Source: Liolophura sinensis (lineage: Eukaryota; Mollusca; Polyplacophora; Chitonida; Chitonidae). Taken from it: a stretch of DNA of 64,000 nt. Location: positions 1,924,001 through 1,988,000 of the forward strand of contig NC_088301.1 in assembly GCF_032854445.1 (NCBI RefSeq), written 5' to 3'. The position numbers and the translations under genes are program-made. The first letter of the stretch is position 1; every line of letters starts with the position of its first letter. This document shows, piece by piece, positions 45,901 through 63,900 of the stretch. The notes beneath the pieces were generated by a model. The model was not told where the DNA came from and did no database searches. It worked only from the letters and a program-made list of their open reading frames with translations.

Positions 45901-48900
45901 CATCTGCAGAGCATTGTCTGTATTGTTTTCAAGGTCATTTATTCTCTTAAGTGCATTTAGCATGAATCTGTTGATATGGGTCACTTAGGACTAAAACTGT
46001 TTGCCTTAAGGTTTCATAGTGGTATCAGGTGTGAGGTTGTCTAGGTTAAGAAACTCATGGAAAGGAAAGAAACGCAGACTGTTTGTAGAGTGTTAAAGTA
46101 TTGGATATGTTTCATTGAAAAGAAGATTGTGAAAGGGGCTCATCGTAATATGTGAACTTTTAAGCATTGCTGATTTCATGTGTTTTCAAAGATTTTAGGA
46201 ATAAAGCTACATCGGTAGGTACAGATTCAATAAAATTGTCTTAAAAATGCGCATTTCTGAGAGTAGGGGGCAGAATGAGGCTATCATGGAAGATTATGTG
46301 GTGCTATATGAACAGGCCAGACGGATTGTTCACATGCGGATCAGTCCAAAGGTTTAATGTTCGTGGTTCATTCAGGGTTGACTGGAATTGGAAAAGTACT
46401 TGACAGTAGCTTATCAACAAGAGAAAGATGCATTGAATGAAGTTCCATTACAGAGGGAAACACAAGATATAACTGGAATTTCAGTTTATGTGTGGAGTTG
46501 ATGGAGCAGAATCTCCCATTATAAATAGCCAGTTTTTTTTTTTTGGAGAGTACCTCACGTGTCTCTTAATCACACGAAATCCATGAAAGAATGGTTGTCC
46601 GGTTCTTTAAAGAGACCAATTACCGGAGAGGTTTGGTAAAAAATTGATGAACGCAAGTCCAGTCTAGTTTGTGCAAGTATTTTAGATAGCCTAAGGAATT
46701 ACCATTCACAGATATAAGCCTTGTCTTTATAGGTGTTACCAGTCAAAATCTGTCTTCATGTATAAATGTTAAACTTCATAATGCTGGTTGCCCTATAACT
46801 TTTCCAAATTTTAAAATCATATTAACAATAAATGGTACAGGTATGAGCCTGGTTTTATCTCAAAGGCATTAATCTAAGCTATTCTTGGTAATTAGAGAAA
46901 TTTGGTTTGACTGAACATATATTTTTGGCAACAAAAAATCAACAGTATATCAATTTTATCCATTTCGGTTCATTGATTTGCCGTTTTTACGCACATTGTA
47001 TCATTGGCCACTTGTGTTTTTAAGAACCATATGTTATCTGCTGTTGACCAAGAAACCCGTTTTATACATGAGCACATGTTGAAGAGCCCACAGTTTATAG
47101 GTTGATCCCCAGTTTGCATATCGCTGGTCATGATAAGTTCCATTTAAGAGAGAAAGTGTTTATTGGACTTTCAGAACATTTAACAGTGTGTACATTATCA
47201 GTTACATAAGTTGTTTTGTTTTTTCCTTTTCAGATCTTGAACTAAAGAACATTATAGACAAGTTAGCCAACTTCGTGGCTCGGAATGGTCCAGAGTTTGA
47301 GTTCATGACCAAAAACAAACAGAAAGACAATCCCAAGTTTTCTTTCCTGTTTGGTGGGGAGTATTTTAATTACTATCAGTACAAGGTGACAACAGAGCAG
47401 ACAAGTAAGTCCACATGTTAGCCATCAAGTAAGTTTACCATCAAGTAAGTTCACTATCAAAGGATACAAGAAAAGGAACTATAAAACAAAGATTATGTTT
47501 CTATGTCAAATGAAGAAAATTATGAGCAAGAATTGTTGTTAAAAAAAATGTCATTTGGAGAGTTATATACCTGTTAATTACTGGGCTATATTGTTCATAT
47601 TTTCCGTCAACGGTCAGATTTCTTCAGAAATAATGTCATCATCGATCTTCCTCGGAGTTTGGTGAACACCCACTAAGTGCCCCCAGCCCAGTGAACAGGT
47701 CGCTATAGTGTGGGCAAGGCGACATGTACACAGCTACTGCATGTCGTCTTGGGGCCAGCTTAGCGTCCCCTGAACCTCCCTATACCGGCCCCCATTCCGT
47801 CTGTTCGCCCCACCCCAGCCCAAATTAGGCCAGACCTATGCAGTCTGTCCCACACAGAGTTCTTTTTAAACAGGGGTCATTGATGACCTCACTGCTGCAA
47901 GGGACTTAATTTCCAGACTGACCGCTGGGGCCTTAAGAAAACTTTACTTTGAAGCCATTTTACCCCCCAAAGTGAAAGTAGAAAAATTTGTTTGTACTGT
48001 TATGTTATTACACATGATAATGTGCAGATTAAGAAATAAAACCAAAGAGTTTCATGTATCTTTCAAGTAAGTTCATATGTTGGCCATCAAGTAAGTTCAT
48101 ATGTTAGCCATCCAGTAAGTTCACAATCAAATAAGTTCATATTTTATCCATTAAGTAATTTTGCTATCAAGTAAGTTCACATGATGGCCGTCAAGTATGT
48201 TTACCATGAATTAAGTTCATATGTTAGCCATCAAGTAAGTTTACCATCGAGTATGTTCACATGTTAGCCATCATGTAAGTTGAGCATCAAGCAAGTTCAC
48301 CATCAAGCAAGTTCATATGTTAGCCATCAGTTAAGCTTGAAAGTTTATCTTCCAGTAAGTTTATAGATGTAATTTCTGTCAATTACATTCACAGGTTTAC
48401 CATTAAGTCAGTACCAAGATGACATATGGCATTTATAGGAGAGGTTAAATGTGCATATTAGTGCAGTTTTTCTTCATAAAATGGGAGTGTGCTTTATAAT
48501 GAAATTATATTTTCGTTATCAAATACACTCCATAGTTTTCTGGAAAACTTGTTAAACTCCTTGGTGACAGCATGCTGGCTATAAAGGGGGCTTGTAATTC
48601 TAACTTTGTCAAATAAGAAACTTGAACTCTGAAATGTGGACAGCCAACATGTAATTGCTGGTAGGGGAACATTTTTACTTTGACGATACGAAGCTAAATT
48701 AAAAGTTGAAACTAGTTACAGTTTTCATATATAGGGGATGAATGTAAAGGTTGAAACTAGTTACAGTTTTCAGATGTAGGGGATGAAGGTAAAGGTTGAA
48801 ACTAGTTACAGTGTTCATATATAGGGGATGAAGGTAAAGGTTGAAACTAGTTACAGTGTTCATATATTGGGGATGAATGTAAAGGTTGAAACTAGTTACA

Positions 48901-51900
48901 GTTTTAATATGTAGGGGATGAATGTAAAGGTTGAAACTAGTTACAGTGTTCATATATAGGGGATGAATGTGAAGGTTGAAACTAGTTACAGTGTTCATAT
49001 ATTGGGGATGAAGGTAAAGGTTGAAACTTTTCCAGCAACAATACAGATAGGTGACCATTGTCTGGCTGGTAAAGTACCCCAGAATGAGACATCAGCATGT
49101 GACAGATTGTACATGTTCACATGTATCTCTCTTTAGTTCCTATCTTGTTTGGTGTTTAGGGCTGTTTATTGATTGATGACCTGGTTTCAGGGGGAGATAA
49201 GACATGTGACTTCAGCAGCTGTGATGACTGTCACCACCAGGGGGCTCTGATCTATCAAGGCTCAGACCATAGCTTCTGAACTTTTATTTTTTTATTTACT
49301 AAATTTTTAGTTTTAAACACAGAATAAGTAGATATACATGTACATGTAAATTCCCCGCATCTGCTGTTAAATTCAGTTTTACTCTAACTCCACCCGTAAT
49401 TAAAGACATGGGCGGTATGTATTTGGCAAGACTGTGTAGTTAAACATGTTTTTGGTGCCAAATTGTAAGCTCTAAGCTCACCAGCAATTTAGCAAAATCA
49501 GTTATCACTCTAGACTTCATGGAGTAACACAGCAAGGGTTATTTGTGTAAATGTTGAGTTCATGTACATATTATTAGCTTCTGTTATTGTGCGTGTTGGT
49601 GGAGCATTCTAGGAGTTGTTATTCATTGTAGTTTGTATGTGATTATGATGCCAGCTCATACATTTGCATATCCGGACTCTTGATCATAAAGACATATGCC
49701 TTATAAGAAGAGGGAGTAACTTATATGTAAGTCTTAGGGTGTGTCAGAGGGCAGCTGTTCAGAAACTCCAGGTAGTCAGGTGTGTCATATTACCTCACCT
49801 GGAAATTTACAGCTGGTCAAGACTGAACTGTTTACTTGTGTGAGTAAGCCATGTCATCAGGTGATTAGCCTAAGCTTGGTCGGCTTGTGGCCTGACTCAC
49901 TGATGAGAACCACTCACCTGTTCATATCTGGTTTTAATAACACAGATTTCTTTTGCTTTGTTGTTTTTTTTTTCAACTTTTGTTCGTGTTTTGGAGGAAG
50001 TTATCCTGTTTTATAATGACTTTTGTGCACTTGACACTCCAAATTCTTTGATATATTACATTGCTTTTGTTATGGTTTTGAAACATTGTTTTATTTTTCT
50101 TTGTGAGCTAAATTATATTGTAGTAGTAATCCCCTTCTTCCCCCAGTAAGGGTAATTGTAAACGGATTGCAGAGACACGTGTATACATGTGGGTAATTCG
50201 TATCCCTTTGTTGGTTTAGAACAACATTTGTCTTCTTTCTTTTTTTTTGACTATTTTGAATTTTGTTCAGCAATTTACTTTTTAATAAAGAGCATTGTGT
50301 TAAAAATTACAACTGTAGGTAATTGATGGTCATGGATGGAACGTAAGATTCAGTTCTGATAATACTCTTCATGTTGCATGGGCCTCAAAAAAGATGAACA
50401 TTTTTTATCTGTAAACAGAAGTTTCATGCCCTCATGTTTTTTTGCAAAAGTGGCCTGCCTGAGAAAATGTCTGCTCTCCAGAAAAAATGGTGAGGCAAAG
50501 TCACCCAGGTCAGTTAGTACTATTAATATTATCAATCAAATACATGTTCTGGAAGCTCGTTGACTGCTTTGGGAACCCCCCCCCCCCAAAAAAAAGAGTT
50601 GTTTTTTGCTTGAGATTTCATCGCCCTTTGTCTCAGTAGGAGGTTACACATTGCAAACAGTCAAAAGTAAACCTGCTGATAATGGTTGTAGACAGAATGT
50701 ATGTATTACATGTACAGATAACTGTTTACATGTAGAGATAACCCTGTCTGCCCCTGTTGTGTGAACAGTTACACCGCTGAGGTCATTGGTCTCTATGGCC
50801 TGTCTGTACTGCTGTTTTCAGGCCACACCTAGAGCTCTGCAAACATCTCCAGCAGGAACATCTGTTGATTTGCTATACAAACATGGTCTCATGTACTCTG
50901 TACAAAGCATCATCTGGGATGTCTGGTAGCTAGCTATAGAGTATCCCTCTTATGTGTGTGTATTAAAAAATACACGTTCATTATTGATACTAGTACATAT
51001 CAACTGAACAGAGATAGTTTAACATTTAACTGAAAAGACTGGTAATGTTCATTGTGTCACAATAGCACATGCACAGTTGTACATATACGGTACATGCACA
51101 CAGGTGCCTTCACCAGTTGTATGTATACAGTACATGCATGCATGTGCCCTCACCAGTTGTGCATATACAATACATGCACACACGTGCCTTCACCAGTTGT
51201 ACATATACAGTACATGCACACACGTGCCCTCACCAGTTGTACATATACAATACATGCACACACGTGCCTTCACCAGTTGTACATCTACAGTACATGCACA
51301 CACGTGCCCTCACCAGTTGTACATATACAGTACATGTATACATGTGCCTTCAGCAGTTGTACATATACAGTACATGCATGCATGTGCCTTCACCAGTTGT
51401 ACATATACAGTACATGCATCCATGTGCCTTCACCAGTTGTACATGTACAGTACATGGACACACGTGCCCTCACCAGTTGTACATATACAGTACATGCACA
51501 CACGTGCCCTCACCAGTTGTACATATACAATACATGCACACACGTGCCTTCACCAGTTGTGCATATACAGTACATGTATACATGTGCCTTCAGCAGTTGT
51601 ACATATACAGTACATGCATGCATGTGCCTTCAGCAGTTGTACATATACAGTACATGCATCCATGTGCCTTCACCAGTTGTACATATACAGTACATGCATC
51701 CATGTGCCTTCACCAGTTGTACATATACAATACATGCACACATGTGCCCTCACCAGTTGTGCATATACAGTACATGCACACAGGTGCCTTCACCAGTTGT
51801 ACATATACAGTACATGCACACACGTGCCCTCACCAGTTGTACATATACAATACATGCACACACGTGCCTTCACCAGTTGTGCATATACAATACATGCACA

Positions 51901-54900
51901 CACGTGCCTTCAGCAGTTGTACATATACAGTACATGCACACACGTGCCCTCACCAGTTGTATGTATACAGTACATGCATGCATGTGCCCTCACCAGTTGT
52001 GCATATACAATACATGCACACACGTGCCTTCACCAGTTGTACATATACAGTACATGCACACACGTGCCCTCACCAGTTGTACATATACAGTACATGCACA
52101 CACGTGCCTTCACCAGTTGTACATCTACAGTACATGCACACACGTGCCCTCACCAGTTGTACATATACAGTACATGTATACATGTGCCTTCAGCAGTTGT
52201 ACATATACAGTACATGCATGCATGTGCCTTCACCAGTTGTTCATATACAGTACATGCATCCATGTGCCTTCACCAGTTGTACATATACAGTACATGCGTC
52301 CATGTGCCTTCACCAGTTGTACATATACAGTACATGCACACACGTGCCTTCAGCAGTTGTACATATACAGTACATGCACACACGTGCCTTCACCAGTTGT
52401 ACATTCACAGTACATACGTACATGTGCCTTCAGCAGTTGTACATATACAGTACATGCATACATGTGCCTTAACCAGTTGTACATTCACAGTACATGCGTA
52501 CATGTGCCTTCACCAGTTGTACATATACAGTACATGCATGCATGTGCCTTCACCAGTTGTACATGTACAGTACATGCATCCATGTGCCTTCACCAGTTGT
52601 ACATATACAGTACATGCACACACGTGCCTTCACCAGTTGTACATATACAGTACATGCACACACATGCCTTCACCAGTTGTACATTCACAGTACATGCGTA
52701 CATGTGCCTTAACCAGTTGGTTTATTGGAATGGTGTTTTACGCCTTACTCAAGAATGTTTCACTTCTACGACGGCAGCCAACATTATGGTGGGAGGAAAC
52801 AGGATGGAGCCTGTAGGAGACTCTCGACCTTCTGCAGGTTGCCCTTCACCAGTTTGTGTATGGAATTTATTATGTTGTATTCTTGTCAAAAAAGCTTCAT
52901 TGTGCAGTTTGTGTATACATGTTCATATATGTGAAACACATTGTTTATATTTAGGCTTCGTAGACATTGAGTTATAAATGCAATGAAGAACAATGACTGA
53001 AAAATAAAAGGAAATGAATCATTACTAGAAATCCTTTGAAATGATTGGACACTTCTGACATGGTGAATATGATTTGACACTTCTGAAACGCTGAATATGA
53101 TTTGACACATCTGAAACGCTGAATAAAATTTTCACTTTAGACTGGTTTATAATGTTACCGCAGAGCTAAATGATTACCCACATTATTCTCTTCAACTTAC
53201 CAGTTACATTACGTTCTGTTAGGAAAAATGATTACCCTTGTAATGTACATTTCTGTTCTCTGTTGTCAGTTATTAACCATCAGAAGCAAAAACTTGCAGA
53301 GCAGCAGCAGAAGTTAGCGCAACAACAAGTGATAGTTCAGCAGGTGATTACCCAGCAGGCCATTCAAACAGCACCATGGCAACAAAACCAGCAAGCGACT
53401 CAGCAAATCCAGCAGCTCCAGCAGCAGATACAACAACAACAACAGCGGATGCAGGAGCAGATCAAACAGAGCGAGCAGAATCTGGCTGCGCAGTATCAGA
53501 GCCTGATACAGCAACAACAGGTGGGTGGTCATGTAAAACCTGGTGGAGTTCTGTGTATTGATGGGTTGAAAGCAGGAGAGAATTAGGGTGCTTTCGGTTA
53601 TGCGAAATCACCAGCTCATAAGGACCAATCAAGTAACAGTAGCATTCATATAACATGACATGAATGGTTGGGCCTGGCTGGTGACACAGGTGTTTTTACA
53701 CAGGTGTGATTTTAAGCGCCTATATGATGGAGAAGCAGAAGCATAAGGTGTGGCAGGAAATATCAGATCACAAAGCTTTCTGTTTTTGCCTTTTCCAGAG
53801 CAGAAGCGTAAGGTGTGGCATGAAATATCAGATCGCAAAGCTTTCTGTTTTTGCCTTTTCCAGAGCTATATATGGAATTACTATTCCAGTACATGTACAC
53901 TCATTGTGTATTGTGGTCTAGGAGGTTTTGCAGATCTTATCAGATATGATAGTCATCTTCAGTAGATTCTATACCCAAAACATCTTCCACAATACATACG
54001 TTATTTGCTGGTGACTCTTTTTTTTCTATGTTTAAAATTAATTGTGTATAAGACCTCAGTTTTGTTCAGGTATTTCACATGTGTATTCGTACAGGAGTTT
54101 GCATTTAGTTCTCATCTCTAACATTGGTGTTTGGTGTTGATTGGGCTAGGGGACATGAGCATATACCATCAACCTGTTGTTTCATGAAGGAAGTTGGAAA
54201 TGTTTCATATTTGGTACTCTAATATTATCTTTTTTATTTGTACGGGTTTGTAGGTTAGCTAGTAAAGTAATGATTATTATGGCGCCTGCCTCATGGATGA
54301 ATTAAACAACTCTATATGCCTCCTCATGGTGTTGCCAGGTGGATATGGATTCTATGGATTATGTGGATTCTACAATACAACGGCTAATACCTTATGAACA
54401 ATGTTTGTGGGATTATGTGGCTGGATTAGAGTTGAGCGCTACTTTGTTATTAGTGGCGTTAATCGTTTTGATGTAATCATTGCATAAAAACCAACCGATC
54501 AGTGAAGGGCTCAAACAGTGTTAAGCTGTGTATAAGTTTATGAGTCAGTGCCTTACCAGTGCTGTGTAAACTGTAATGTGACTGCTAGTGAGGTAACGAC
54601 ATCAGGCATAAAAATAACCCAAAGCCGTAAGTCAGATTTACTGATGACAGCAGCATGGCCACATTAATCTCACTGTGGCTAAGTATTTGACAGATCCAGC
54701 GCTAACTGTGCTACTAAAGCTGTGGTTTTGCTGTCTTTATACACCATGACTTTCTCCCATTATTGTTTATATTAAGACTGAATTGGAACACAAATTTCTT
54801 CCAAAGGTCTTTCGGTTTGAATGGGAAAGATAACATTAGACTAATCCAAGGATGTGGACCTTTATCGTCTTTAGTTACCCAGTATTTAAGAACCTCTGTG

Positions 54901-57900: not shown

Positions 57901-60900
57901 TGCACATGTAGACGTGTGGACATGGATGTGTGTTTCCAAGGTTCATGGCAGAAAGGAGCTTTGATTTTCAGTTTTGGTTTGATTGTAATAGAGAAGTACA
58001 GTATAGCATGATACACGTAGGTATTTCAGCGTACAGAAACGTTGAGAAATGCTAATGAAATTGATGCACGTGTAGATGTGTGGACATGGATGTGTGTGTC
58101 AAGGTTCATGGCAGAAAGGAGCTTTGATTTTCAGTTTTGGTTTGATTGTAATAGAGAAGTACAGTATAGCATGATACACGTAGGTATTTCAGCGTACAGA
58201 AACGTTGAGAAATGCTAATGAAATTGATGCACATGTAGACGTGTGGACATGGATGTGTGTTTCCAAGGTTCATGGCAGAAAGGAGCTTTGATTTTCAGTT
58301 TTGGTTTGATTGTAATAGAGAAGTACAGTATAGCATGATACACATAGGTATTTCAGCGTACAGAAACGTTGAGAAATGCTAATGAAATTGATGCACGTGT
58401 AGACGTGTGGACATGGATGTGTGTTTCCAAGGTTCATGGCAGAAAGGAGCTTTGATTTTCAGTTTTGGTTTGATTGTAATAGAGAAGTACAGTATAGCAT
58501 GATACACGTAGGTATTTCAGCGTACAGAAACGTTGAGAAATGCTAATGAAATTGATGCACATGTAGACGTGTGGACATGGATGTGTGTTTCCAAGGTTCA
58601 TGGCAGAAAGGAGCTTTGATTTTCAGTTTTGGTTTGATTGTAATAGAGAAGTACAGTATAGCATGATACACGTAGGTATTTCAGCGTACAGAAACGTTGA
58701 GAAATGCTAATGAAATTGATGCACATGTAGACGTGTGGACATGGATGTGTGTGTCAAGGTTCATGGCAGAAAGGAGCTTTGATTTTCAGTTTTGGTTTGA
58801 TTGTAATAGAGAAGTACAGTATATTATTTATACTATATGTTGGGAGTTTTTTTTAATATTTTAGGAGAAGGCTTAGCAGGCTTTTATTATAATATAAAAA
58901 CTTAACATAAAAAAAACAGTGGAATATTAAAAGTTATGTTGTATTTTAGCAATTTATAGCTAAAATGTGCTGTACCACATGTTATGTACCACCCACAGGT
59001 CATGTACCATAACAGACGGAATGAGTTGTGGTTTGGGTTTGTGAAATGGAGCTCACACAAAATCATGTGACCTTTTTGAACCATTATTCATAGAATGTAA
59101 AATTGTTTATATGCATCATTTAATTGTTGAAATTCTACCTGCTGTTGTAGATTCAGATTGAGGATGCCATTCTTAAGGCTCGAGACGAGAGGCTACAAGC
59201 GCTGAGTGAGAACAGTGGGATAAGCATAGATGACCTGAACAAAGTCGTACAGCCGATCATCGAGTCCTGTACCAAAGATGCCATCTCTGTAAGTCACCAC
59301 AGATAGGTACAGCCTATCACGGAGTCATGCACCAAAGATGCCATCTCTGTAAGTCACCACAGATAGGTACAGCCTATCACGGAGTCATGCACCAAAGATG
59401 CCATCTCTGTAAGTCACCACAGATAGGTACAGCCTATCACGGAGTCATGCACCAAAGATGCCATCTCTGTAAGTCACCACAGATAGGTACAGCCTATCAC
59501 GGAGTCATGCACCAAAGATGCCATCTCTGTAAGTCACCACAGATAGGTACAGCCTATCACGGAGTCATGCACCAAAGATGCCATCTCTGTAAGTCACCAC
59601 AGATAGTTACAGCCTATCATAGAGTCATGTACCAAAGATGCCATCTGTGTAAGTCACCACAGATAGGTACAGCCTATCACGGAGTCATGCACCAAAGATG
59701 CCATCTCTGTAAGTCACCACAGATAGGTACAGCCTATCATAGTCATGTACCAAAGATGCCATCTGTGTAAGTCACCACAGATAGGTACAGCCTATCACGG
59801 AGTCATGCACCAAAGATGCCATCTCTGTAAGTCACCACAGATAGGTACAGCCTATCACGGAGTCATGCACCAAAGATGCCATCTCTGTAAGTCACCACAG
59901 ATAGTTACAGCCTATCATAGAGTCATGTACCAAAGATGCCATCTGTGTAAGTCACCACAGATAGGTACAGCCTATCACGGAGTCATGCACCAAAGATGCC
60001 ATCTCTGTAAGTCACCACAGATAGGTACAGCCTATCATAGTCATGTACCAAAGATGCCATCTGTGTAAGTCACCACAGATAGGTACAGCCTATCACGGAG
60101 TCATGCACCAAAGATGCCATCTCTGTAAGTCACCACAGATAGGTACAGCCTATCACGGAGTCATGCACCAAAGATGCCATCTCTGTAAGTCACCACAGAT
60201 AGGTACAGCCTATCACGGAGTCATGCACCAAAGATGCCATCTCTGTAAGTCACCACAGATAGGTACAGCCTATCACGGAGTCATGCACCAAAGATGCCAT
60301 CTCTGTAAGTCACCACAGATAGGTACAGCCTATCATAGTCATGTACCAATGATGCCATCTGTGTAAGTCACCACAGATAGTTACAGCCTATCATAGAGTC
60401 ATGTACCAAAGATGCCATCTGTGTAAGTCACCACAGATAGGTACAGCCTATCATAGTCATGTACCAAAGATGCCATCTCTGTAAGTCACCACAGATGGTT
60501 ACAGCCTATCATAGAGTCATGTACCAAAGATGCCATTTGTGTAAATCACCACAGATAGGTACAGCCTATCACGGAGTCATGCACCAAAGATGCCATCTCT
60601 GTAAGTCACCACAGATAGGTACAGCCTATCATAGTCATGTACCAAAGATGCCATCTCTGTAAGTCACCACAGATAGGTACAGCCGATCATCGAGTCCTGT
60701 ACCAAAGATGCCATTTGTGTAAATCACCACAGATAGTTACAGCCTATCATAGAGTCATGTACCAAAGATGCCATTTGTGTAAATCACCACAGATAGTTAC
60801 AGCCTATCATAGAGTCATGTACCAAAGATGCCATCTGTGTAAGTCACCACAGATAGTTACAGCCTATCATAGAGTCATGTACCAAAGATGCCATTTGTGT

Positions 60901-63900
60901 AAATCACCACAGATAGGTACAGCCTATCACGGAGTCATGTACCAAAGATGCCATCTGTGTAAGTGACCGCGGATAGTTACAGCCTATCATAGTCATGTAC
61001 CAAAAATGCCATCTGTGTAAGTTACCATGGATAGGTACAGCCTATCATAGAGTCAAGTACAAAAGATGCCATCTGTGTAAGTCACCACGGATAGTTACAG
61101 CCTATCATAGTTATGCGCCAAAGATGCCATCTCTCTTGTACCAAAGATGCCATCTGTGTAAGTCACCAGGGATAGGTACAGCGTATCATAGTCATGTACC
61201 AAAAATGCCATCTGTGTAAGTCACCAGGGATAGATACAGCCTATCATAGTTATGCGCCAAAGATGCCATCTCTCATGTACCAAAGATGCCATCTGTGTAA
61301 GTCACCAGGGATAGGTACAGCCTATCATAGTCATGTACCAAAAATGCCATCTGTGTAAGTTACCATGGATAGGTACAGCCTATCATAGAGTCAAGTACAA
61401 AAGATGCCATCTGTGTAAGTCACCAGGGATAGATACAGCCTATCATAGTTATGCGCCAAAGATGCCATCTCTCATGTACCAAAGATGCCATCTGTGTAAG
61501 TCACCAGGGATAGGTACAGCCTATCATAGTCATGTACCAAAAATGCCATCTGCGTAAGTCACCAGGGATAGGTACAGCCTATCATAGTTATGTACCAAAG
61601 ATGCCATCTGTGTAAGTCACCATGGATAGGTACAGCCTATCATAGTCATGTACCAAAAATGCCATCTGCGTAAGTCACCAGGGATAGTTACAGCCTATCA
61701 TAGAGTCATGTACCAAAGATGCCATTTGTGTAAGTCACCAGGGATAGTTACAGCCTATCATAGAGTCATGTACCAAAGATGCCATTTGTGTAAATCACCA
61801 CAGATAGGTACAGCCTATCACGGAGTCATGTACCAAAGATGCCATCTGTGTAAGTTACCATGGATAGGTACAGCCTATCATAGAGTCAAGTACAAAAGAT
61901 GCCATCTGTGTAAGTCACCACGGATAGTTACAGCCTATCATAGTTATGCGCCAAAGATGCCATCTCTCTTGTACCAAAGATGCCATCTGTGTAAGTCACC
62001 AGGGATAGGTACAGCGTATCATAGTCATGTACCAAAAATGCCATCTGTGTAAGTTACCATGGATAGGTACAGCCTATCATAGAGTCAAGTACAAAAGATG
62101 CCATCTGTGTAAGTCACCAGGGATAGATACAGCCTATCATAGTTATGCGCCAAAGATGCCATCTCTCATGTACCAAAGATGCCATCTGTGTAAGTCACCA
62201 GGGATAGGTACAGCCTATCATAGTCATGTACCAAAAATGCCATCTGCGTAAGTCACCAGGGATAGGTACAGCCTATCATAGTTATGTACCAAAGATGCCA
62301 TCTGTGTAAGTCACCATGGATAGGTACAGCCTATCATAGTCATGTACCAAAAATGCCATCTGCGTAAGTCACCAGGGATAGGTACAGCCTATCATAGTTA
62401 TGTACCAAAGATGCCATCTGTGTAAGTCACCATGGATAGGTACAGTGTATCATAGTTATGTACCAAAGATGCCATCTGTGTAAGTCACCATGGATAGGTA
62501 CAGCCTATCATAGTCATGTACCAAAGATGCCATCTGTGTAAGTCACCATGGATAGGTACAGCCTATCATAGTCATGTACCAAAAATGCCATCTGCGTAAG
62601 TCACCAGGGATAGGTACAGCCTATCATAGTCATGTACCAAAGATGCCATCTGTGTAAGTCACCATGGATAGGTACAGCCTATCATAGTCATGTACCAAAG
62701 ATGCCATCTGTGTAAGTCACCATGGATAGGTACAGCCTATCATAGTTATGTACCAAAGATGCCATCTGTGTAAGTCACCATGGATAGGTACAGTGTATCA
62801 TAGTTATGTACCAAAGATGCCATCTGTGTAAGTCACCATGGATAGGTACAGCCTATCATAGTCATGTACCAAAGATGCCATCTGTGTAAGTCACCATGGA
62901 TAGGTACAGCCTATCATAGTCATGTACCAAAGATGCCATCTGTGTAAGTCACCATGGATAGGTACAGCCTATCATAGTCATGTACCAAAAATGCCATCTG
63001 TGTAAGTTACCATGGATAGGTACAGCCTATCATAGAGTAAAGTACAAAAGATGCCATCTGTGTAAGTCACCAGGGATAGATACAGCCTATCATAGTTATG
63101 CGCCAAAGATGCCATCTCTCATGTACCAAAGATGCCATCTGTGTAAGTCACCAGGGATAGGTACAGCCTATCATAGTCATGTACCAAAAATGCCATCTGC
63201 GTAAGTCACCAGGGATAGGTACAGCCTATCATAGTTATGTACCAAAGATGCCATCTGTGTAAGTCACCATGGATAGGTACAGCCTATCATAGTTATGTAC
63301 CAAAGATGCCATCTGTGTAAGTCACCATGGATAGGTACAGCCTATCATAGAGTTTTGCACCAAAAATGCCATCTCTGTATGAAGCGGAACATCTTAGAAT
63401 TGATCTTTTGCATTAATTTTATTAGAAAGTGGGTTGTAGGTCTAAAACAGGATGACCTGTTCTCTGGTGGACTGCCATTGTAAAAGTGAAATATTTTCAA
63501 GTACAACAATAAACACAAATCAGTAATCCCAAAACTTTTTTTCTTGTCAGAATGGCAAGACCTGGATATTCACCAGAAGTGTGGGAGATGCTCAGTGTGA
63601 ATTTGTCACTTTGTACCTGCTCAAAAGGTAATAATGTGCATTAGTAAGTGTCATTTGTAATTATTGCTTTCTTGTGAAGTGAAATTTGTGCTAAAGTCTA
63701 GAATTTTCTTTTGGAAGGGACACAACTCTTGAGACTGACAGTGAGTTGGCCCCTTTATGTTTTTTTTTTTTTCAATTTGATTAATACATGCATGTGTTCA
63801 TACTTTATATGGCCGTTATATTACATTTAGTGGAACAGTCTTTATGTATGTGCAGCACTTTTAAAACTTGAAATTAAAAATAAGCATGAGTATTAAAGTT

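Follow-up and report, generated by a model that had tools for sequence, protein, structure and literature searches.

An exon-boundary minisatellite carrying copies of a 5' splice site fills most of intron 4 of a CHERP-like gene in the mollusc Liolophura sinensis

Introduction

In lancelets, minisatellite-like duplications lie over 5' or 3' exon-intron boundaries of the genes for Adh3, the globins BflGb6 and BflGb9, and TnC. Many of the repeats carry AG/GT, and the structures are called "mirages" (PMC3087553). The same report gives units of 10-72 bp in Adh3 and about 150-160 bp in the globins, and BflGb6 haplotypes with 6 and 3 repeat units (PMC3087553). PGBD5 mirages have units of 60 and 108 bp in a second report (PMC3902484). 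According to both reports, lancelet mirages seem to leave regular splicing undisturbed (PMC3087553, PMC3902484), and they have been proposed as a source of new introns (PMC3087553). Here, we describe an array of this type in a mollusc, the chiton Liolophura sinensis. It lies in a 64,000-nucleotide stretch of assembly GCF_032854445.1 (contig NC_088301.1, positions 1,924,001 to 1,988,000, forward strand), which we call the window. The array fills most of intron 4 of a CHERP-like gene. Coordinates are those of the window unless preceded by a C number (contig) or an L number (fetched piece).

The features of exon-boundary minisatellites are present at this locus. The unit spans an exon-intron boundary, the repeats carry splice signals, and unit sizes of 58, 60 and 81 nt fall within the range given for mirages (10-72 bp, and up to about 160 bp). 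The differences are the host, a mollusc, and the scale; 68 units fill most of the intron, whereas the two BflGb6 haplotypes have 6 and 3. The CHERP array is a known phenomenon, seen here as a long example in another animal group. The first-pass annotation of this DNA had regarded such an array as undescribed. That view does not hold, since the lancelet mirages of Adh3, the globins, TnC and PGBD5, together with the minisatellite of human IFI6, are precedents. For molluscs, no published account of exon-boundary arrays was among the papers listed in a literature search, which does not prove that there is none.

The IFI6 (6-16) minisatellite has a unit of about 12 nt. It supplies several splice donors, and two downstream units are reported to be used, resulting in three mRNAs (PMC4526556); splice donor sites in the IFI6 minisatellite are also the subject of Turri et al. 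(1995). Both the human and the mollusc minisatellites bear donors. However, downstream units are reportedly used in IFI6, and in the CHERP-like gene such use would add a stop. The gain of introns through tandem duplication of AGGT segments in the genome is the subject of papers on potato and fly. Splice signals are likewise copied in tandem at the CHERP locus, but there the copies lie within an existing intron and no new intron arises. In U1 telescripting, intronic sites that match U1 have a protective function. The CHERP array also contains U1-matching intron sites; for a protective role of the array, nothing was found.

Results

Intron 4 is largely occupied by copies of the exon 4 boundary

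The host gene looks like CHERP. A Surp domain is followed by a CID domain, and from this order and the human protein sequence we take the gene to be CHERP. When exons 4-7 are spliced as read, Pfam identifies the CID domain (PF04818) at residues 33-134 with E 5.4e-17. The domain is continuous through the spliced exons and spans the exon 4/5 junction. Hence, this junction is supported and, with it, the end of exon 4 at 59288. In a comparison of the exon 4-6 peptide with PDB, no chain matched at E 0.001.

The tandem array extends over positions 59247-63379. Split at GTAART, it yields 67 complete units and one truncated unit (Table 1). Exonic sequence makes up the first 42 nt of unit 1, reading ...VQPIIESCTKDAIS, and 18 intronic nt follow. 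Tandem Repeats Finder (TRF) reports period 60 and 65.7 copies, starting at 59247. Our units were cut on the donor motif itself; yet their spacing is regular, and TRF detects the array independently of the motif. Complete units are 60 nt (32 units), 58 nt (29 units) or 81 nt (6 units) long. The donor reads GTAAGT in 62/67 and GTAAAT in 5/67. For comparison, GTAART occurs 32 times on the + strand of window positions 1-47404, so that about 2.8 would be expected per 4.13 kb. The array stops 171 nt short of exon 5 at 63551.

These data agree with the first-pass annotation on the main points: a satellite made of an exon end and its own 5' splice site, an exon ending at 59288, and an array that runs from the splice junction to about 170 bp before the next exon. 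Of its about 68 repeats, 67 are complete units and the 68th is cut at GTA. GTAAGT is retained by nearly all copies, as it stated, with the five GTAAAT units as exceptions.

Translation continued from exon 4 into the intron gives VSHHR and meets an in-frame TAG after 15 nt. Therefore, any downstream donor in this intron adds a premature stop. A search of the L. sinensis genome with unit 1 gave at least 64 matches, and those listed all fall in C7:1983247-1987379, which is the intron 4 array itself (on C7, scaffold_3, exons 4 and 5 with the intron between them span 1983151-1987627); the search scores the best candidates only, and further copies elsewhere are possible.

Table 1. Coordinates, strand and supporting evidence for features of the CHERP-like gene and its donor arrays in the window.
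Feature	Position	Strand	Evidence
"Exon 2" of the CHERP-like gene, SURP domain; ends ACAA/GTAAGT	47234..47404	+	Pfam Surp 2.1e-18; sequence, with its boundary
Intron 2 start; three donors GTAAGT, spacing 24 and 16 nt, directly from the exon 2 donor	47405..47460	+	GTAAGT at 47405, 47429 and 47445
Intron 2 donor array, resuming beyond about 600 bp of intervening sequence; seven GTAAGT	48063..48360	+	TRF 48063-48335; list of GTAAGT
Exon 4	59151..59288	+	Reading frame; CID from spliced exons 4-7, 5.4e-17
Unit 1; 42 nt of exon 4 end and 18 nt of intron start; in-frame TAG at 59304-59306	59247..59306	+	Sequence
Predicted authentic 5' splice site GTAAGT (TCT/GTAAGT)	59289..59294	+	Sequence; CID-backed junction
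Units 2-67, each with donor-like GTAAGT or GTAAAT	59307..63334	+	Unit split
Unit 25; first part has the letters of the real exon (CCGATCATCGAGTCCTGT), where neighbours differ	60677..60736	+	95% to unit 1; unit list
Unit 68, 45 nt, broken off after GTA; array end	63335..63379	+	Unit split
Non-repeated end of the intron, including AATAAA (63508) and the 3' splice site	63380..63550	+	Sequence
Exon 5	63551..63627	+	Sequence; CID from spliced exons

Units differ along the array

The 67 complete units comprise 25 distinct types. The commonest type accounts for 14 units, all of them exon-proximal (within units 2-23). Exon-distal units are mainly 58 nt long and more heterogeneous. Apart from unit 1, the exonic part of the 60-nt units (31 units) occurs in 7 types, and 23/36 differences from the real exon are at third codon positions. 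Unit 25 stands apart. Its first part matches the real exon, and its later part shares letters with neighbouring units. This pattern points to either a past exchange between exon and array or an old copy that may have been retained. No stable hairpin was found in the unit, either as RNA, with z between -1.16 and 0.60 over five stretches, or as DNA, with z between -1.64 and 0.11 over three.

Exon ends seed arrays at further loci

The intron 4 array has counterparts in the same genome. We scanned for three copies of AGGTAAGT with start-to-start spacing of 28-58 nt. The scan gave 629 matches; those listed group into 20 arrays on contig C1, from each of which we fetched a piece. In 2/20, an exon backed by Pfam ends in the first unit. 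One of these exons belongs to a GH31 gene (7.2e-13; array on C1 from 26353409 upward), the other to a Branch gene (1.4e-6; array on C1 at about 3201464-3203429, minus strand).

The GH31 array has a 39-nt unit and sits between adjacent pieces of the domain (profile positions 201-246, then 244-292). As the next exon resumes the domain after the array, the array occupies much of that intron, as in the CHERP-like gene. An alignment to maltase-glucoamylase in PDB reaches the exon end, SIPG. The frame stays open from this exon into the first units, for 136 codons. The Branch array has a 46-nt unit, and the peptide after it gave no Pfam match.

Other exon assignments are weaker. We scanned ten exon-like peptides with Pfam, nine from donor arrays and one from a mirror-motif array; 3 gave E <=0.1 and 2 of these were over the cut-off. 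A deoC-like exon (L015) had a weak model match (E 0.0022), and the L015 and L017 peptides had no match in PDB and none in Pfam at E 10. We tentatively liken L015 to DERA, L017 to GBF1 and L008 to PKD-like proteins. For L002, L010, L016, L017 and L019, an exon end is suggested only by an open frame or by position. L008 seems, by eye, to abut a donor. In the remaining fetched C1 arrays, an exon was not evident or no judgement could be made.

Separately, the GH31 exon that follows the donor array is present as two similar tandem copies in L040 (C1:26353701-26356000), at about 2435 and 2638 in L012+L040. Both contain the same domain piece, with a Pfam E of about 8e-22 each. These are possibly mutually exclusive exons.

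Further arrays in the CHERP-like gene

Donor copies also follow exon 2, as a short run at the start of intron 2 and again further downstream (Table 1). Two other arrays of the gene lie beyond the window. In intron 6, an array of 19 copies of a 30-nt unit begins at the 9th nt past the end of exon 6 (L001:18-599, C7:1988018-1988599); its consensus unit has no donor. An acceptor-side counterpart, with a 61-nt unit in 3.1 copies, precedes a later open frame (L001:6819-7005, C7:1994819-1995005). Each copy of this unit contains a likely 3' splice site (TTGCACTGCAG) and the ensuing frame. The open frame behind the array had no Pfam match.

Within the window, intron 3 has a 65-nt duplication at 53734-53866, both copies of which end in TTTTTGCCTTTTCCAG, resembling a 3' splice site. 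At 51023-52977, a 40-nt unit is repeated in 41 copies, and three frames run open through this array, for 597, 643 and 468 codons. It is likely to give rise to false gene calls.

Donor enrichment and constraint

When arrays are counted, the donor octamer shows no enrichment: among the matches listed for the first 72 Mb of C1, we counted 16 donor arrays and 15 mirror-octamer arrays. The octamers themselves occur 26,660 (donor) and 29,208 (mirror) times genome-wide. The 15 mirror arrays (18 pieces) had their edges read by eye and were not scored. In one of them, L037:1100-1502 (C1:57172299-57172701), an RCC1-like stretch (E 0.018, below the cut-off) is followed by a donor-like site at which the array starts.

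Coding-like sequence lies upstream of 4/13 scored array donors (4/20 of those fetched) and of 4/40 single octamers; Fisher's test gave P 0.09 and 0.25. The score is weak: of two CHERP exons, it detects exon 4 (P 0.01) but not exon 2 (P 0.11). At the L012 donor it gave P 0.033. L003, L013 and L020, which have the sense-side edge outside the piece, were left out of the scoring, as were L006, L008, L011 and L018. The 40 single octamers, a part of those listed, all lie within the initial 2.3 Mb of C1, with clustered sites excluded.

In the CHERP-like gene, 3/11 arrays are at junctions against 1.0 expected, which is not significant (permutation P 0.07). The permutation used eight CHERP exons, some with edges 1 nt off and the first of two late exons only roughly placed, and its count is without the short run at the start of intron 2, which TRF missed.

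We also ranked conservation of the donor hexamer within each unit. The ranks are 9/60 for CHERP, 2/39 for GH31, 6/38 for L017 and 3/35 for L019, and 42/46 for Branch, 46/49 for the deoC-like array and 37/56 for L002. Selecting arrays by a repeated donor octamer biases these values towards donor conservation. In seven arrays with no recognised exon, the donor ranks from 1/29 and 1/56 to 68/84; the exon-linked arrays do not stand out. L010 and L037, also exon-linked, have no rank because the donor is absent from their TRF consensus. A common constraint on donor letters across the seven exon-linked arrays is not supported.

Many copies match U1 as well as the authentic donor, or better

We compared donors by their match to the U1 consensus. 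In CHERP intron 4, the authentic donor and 61/66 decoys match at 6/9 positions, and the five GTAAAT decoys match at 5/9. Decoys that match U1 better than the authentic donor were found for GH31 (13/18 scored), L010 (10/26), the deoC-like array (11/33) and L017 (3/9). There are none in Branch, L019, L002 or CHERP intron 2. Decoys are thus equal to the authentic site in CHERP intron 4 and mostly better in GH31. Hence, strength alone cannot explain why the first donor would win in these two genes.

Other observations in the genome

COX1 matches occur seven times on C99, about 15.5 kb apart, and once on C632. These matches probably reflect a mitochondrial genome that was assembled as a concatemer. 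Matches to rhodopsin-type receptors cluster at C12:20941372-21269244 and C6:49469255-49717645; their scores and frame lengths are the same or almost so. As mirages are described from lancelets, we also considered a lancelet as the source of the genome. Eight matches to Haemocyan_bet_s, a molluscan haemocyanin family, speak for a chiton instead; a search for the GFP family gave no match, but neither did its controls, so that this does not show the family to be absent.

Discussion

We consider it likely that the intron 4 array belongs with the mirages as an exon-boundary minisatellite, and that it is tolerated because the donor chosen in splicing is the first one, linked to the exon. We infer the mutational mechanism, the donor actually used and the fate of rare products as follows. 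A short duplication of the exon end with its 5' splice site would have been the origin. Slippage or unequal exchange could then have expanded the duplication into the intron, downstream of an intact exon. Since copies are as good as the original donor, the first donor would be chosen by position, through transcription order and exon definition. The decoys would be mostly silent, and rare use of them would give early-stop transcripts that decay. Of the three roles put forward by the first-pass annotation, inert expansion with the first donor winning fits best. A general role as decoys or as a landing pad for U1 is not supported, given no consistent donor conservation and no enrichment by array count in the first 72 Mb of C1.

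Several points weigh against a tolerated expansion. In classic duplication experiments, the intron-proximal copy of a duplicated donor is reportedly often preferred, which would predict trouble for the CHERP-like gene. First-donor use in that gene is suggested only by the intact protein domain. The level of GTAAGT retention in the CHERP array and the rank of its donor leave room for constraint there, and GH31 and L019 rank higher. In Branch, 36/55 scored decoys are weaker than the authentic donor, and weaker decoys may help at that locus. Finally, whole-genome match counts favour the donor pattern over the mirror pattern (629 against 468; 470 against 232 for the pair pattern), although many matches can come from one array.

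Could the array, or its length, be wrong? The source assembly has a HiFi coverage of just 14X, a point in favour of an error, and a mean HiFi read of 8,347 bp (PMC11068029). This is about twice the array length. Hence, single reads can reach across the intron 4 array. The window is free of N, the units are of many types rather than one, and comparable arrays exist at further loci. An assembly artefact is therefore extremely improbable. A second alternative is a regulatory role for the decoys. Downstream donors would produce TAG-bearing transcripts that decay and so tune the level of CHERP, as autoregulation by unproductive splicing. The stop shortly after the exon end, which any other donor would bring into the transcript, is consistent with this, as is the second donor array at exon 2 of the same gene. 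Furthermore, CHERP is reported to regulate alternative splicing (PMC8910253). However, like arrays are found in the GH31 and Branch genes, which have no evident connection with splicing, the GH31 unit keeps the frame open so that its first decoys give no stop, and donor letters are unprotected in several arrays. Taken together, we think decoy regulation unlikely. Shielding of the transcript from early cleavage and polyadenylation by many bound U1 particles would make use of the dozens of GUAAGU sites, and one AATAAA is present in the same intron. That signal lies downstream of the array, and inside the array there is no AATAAA or ATTAAA to protect. Moreover, the sites match the U1 consensus at 6/9 or 5/9 positions, and donors are not enriched by array count in the first 72 Mb of C1. 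Such a telescripting role is very unlikely.

A different proposal concerns where arrays arise. They may be born preferentially at 5' splice sites, by mutation linked to transcription or splicing, and not by random landing. The CHERP-like gene itself invites this idea, with two donor arrays, the intron 6 array starting so near an exon end and the 3-copy array over a likely acceptor. Donor patterns also lead in match counts. Even so, the excess at CHERP junctions and that of coding-like sequence upstream of array donors both fall short of significance, and donor and mirror arrays are nearly equal in number. In 1/15 of the mirror arrays (L037), an exon-like stretch likewise leads up to a donor-like site where the array begins, in line with preferential birth. 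On balance, we regard this origin as rather doubtful. Similar caution applies to the broadest interpretation, in which donor-seeded arrays form a large recurrent class in this genome, many genes have tens of equal or better donor copies and are spliced by position only, decoy leakage could set the level of CHERP, and arrays may be born more often at donors than elsewhere. We see some chance that all this is so, and would not expect it.

A tolerated expansion of the mirage type extends a phenomenon known from lancelets to molluscs, at several genes of one genome. One practical consequence is for annotation. Such arrays offer false alternative donors, and nearby arrays give long false open frames. 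More generally, the loci are natural constructs that confront a gene with as many as 67 nearly identical 5' splice sites; in GH31, the majority of the decoys are superior to the authentic site. They bear on how position, transcription order and exon definition decide between equal donors.

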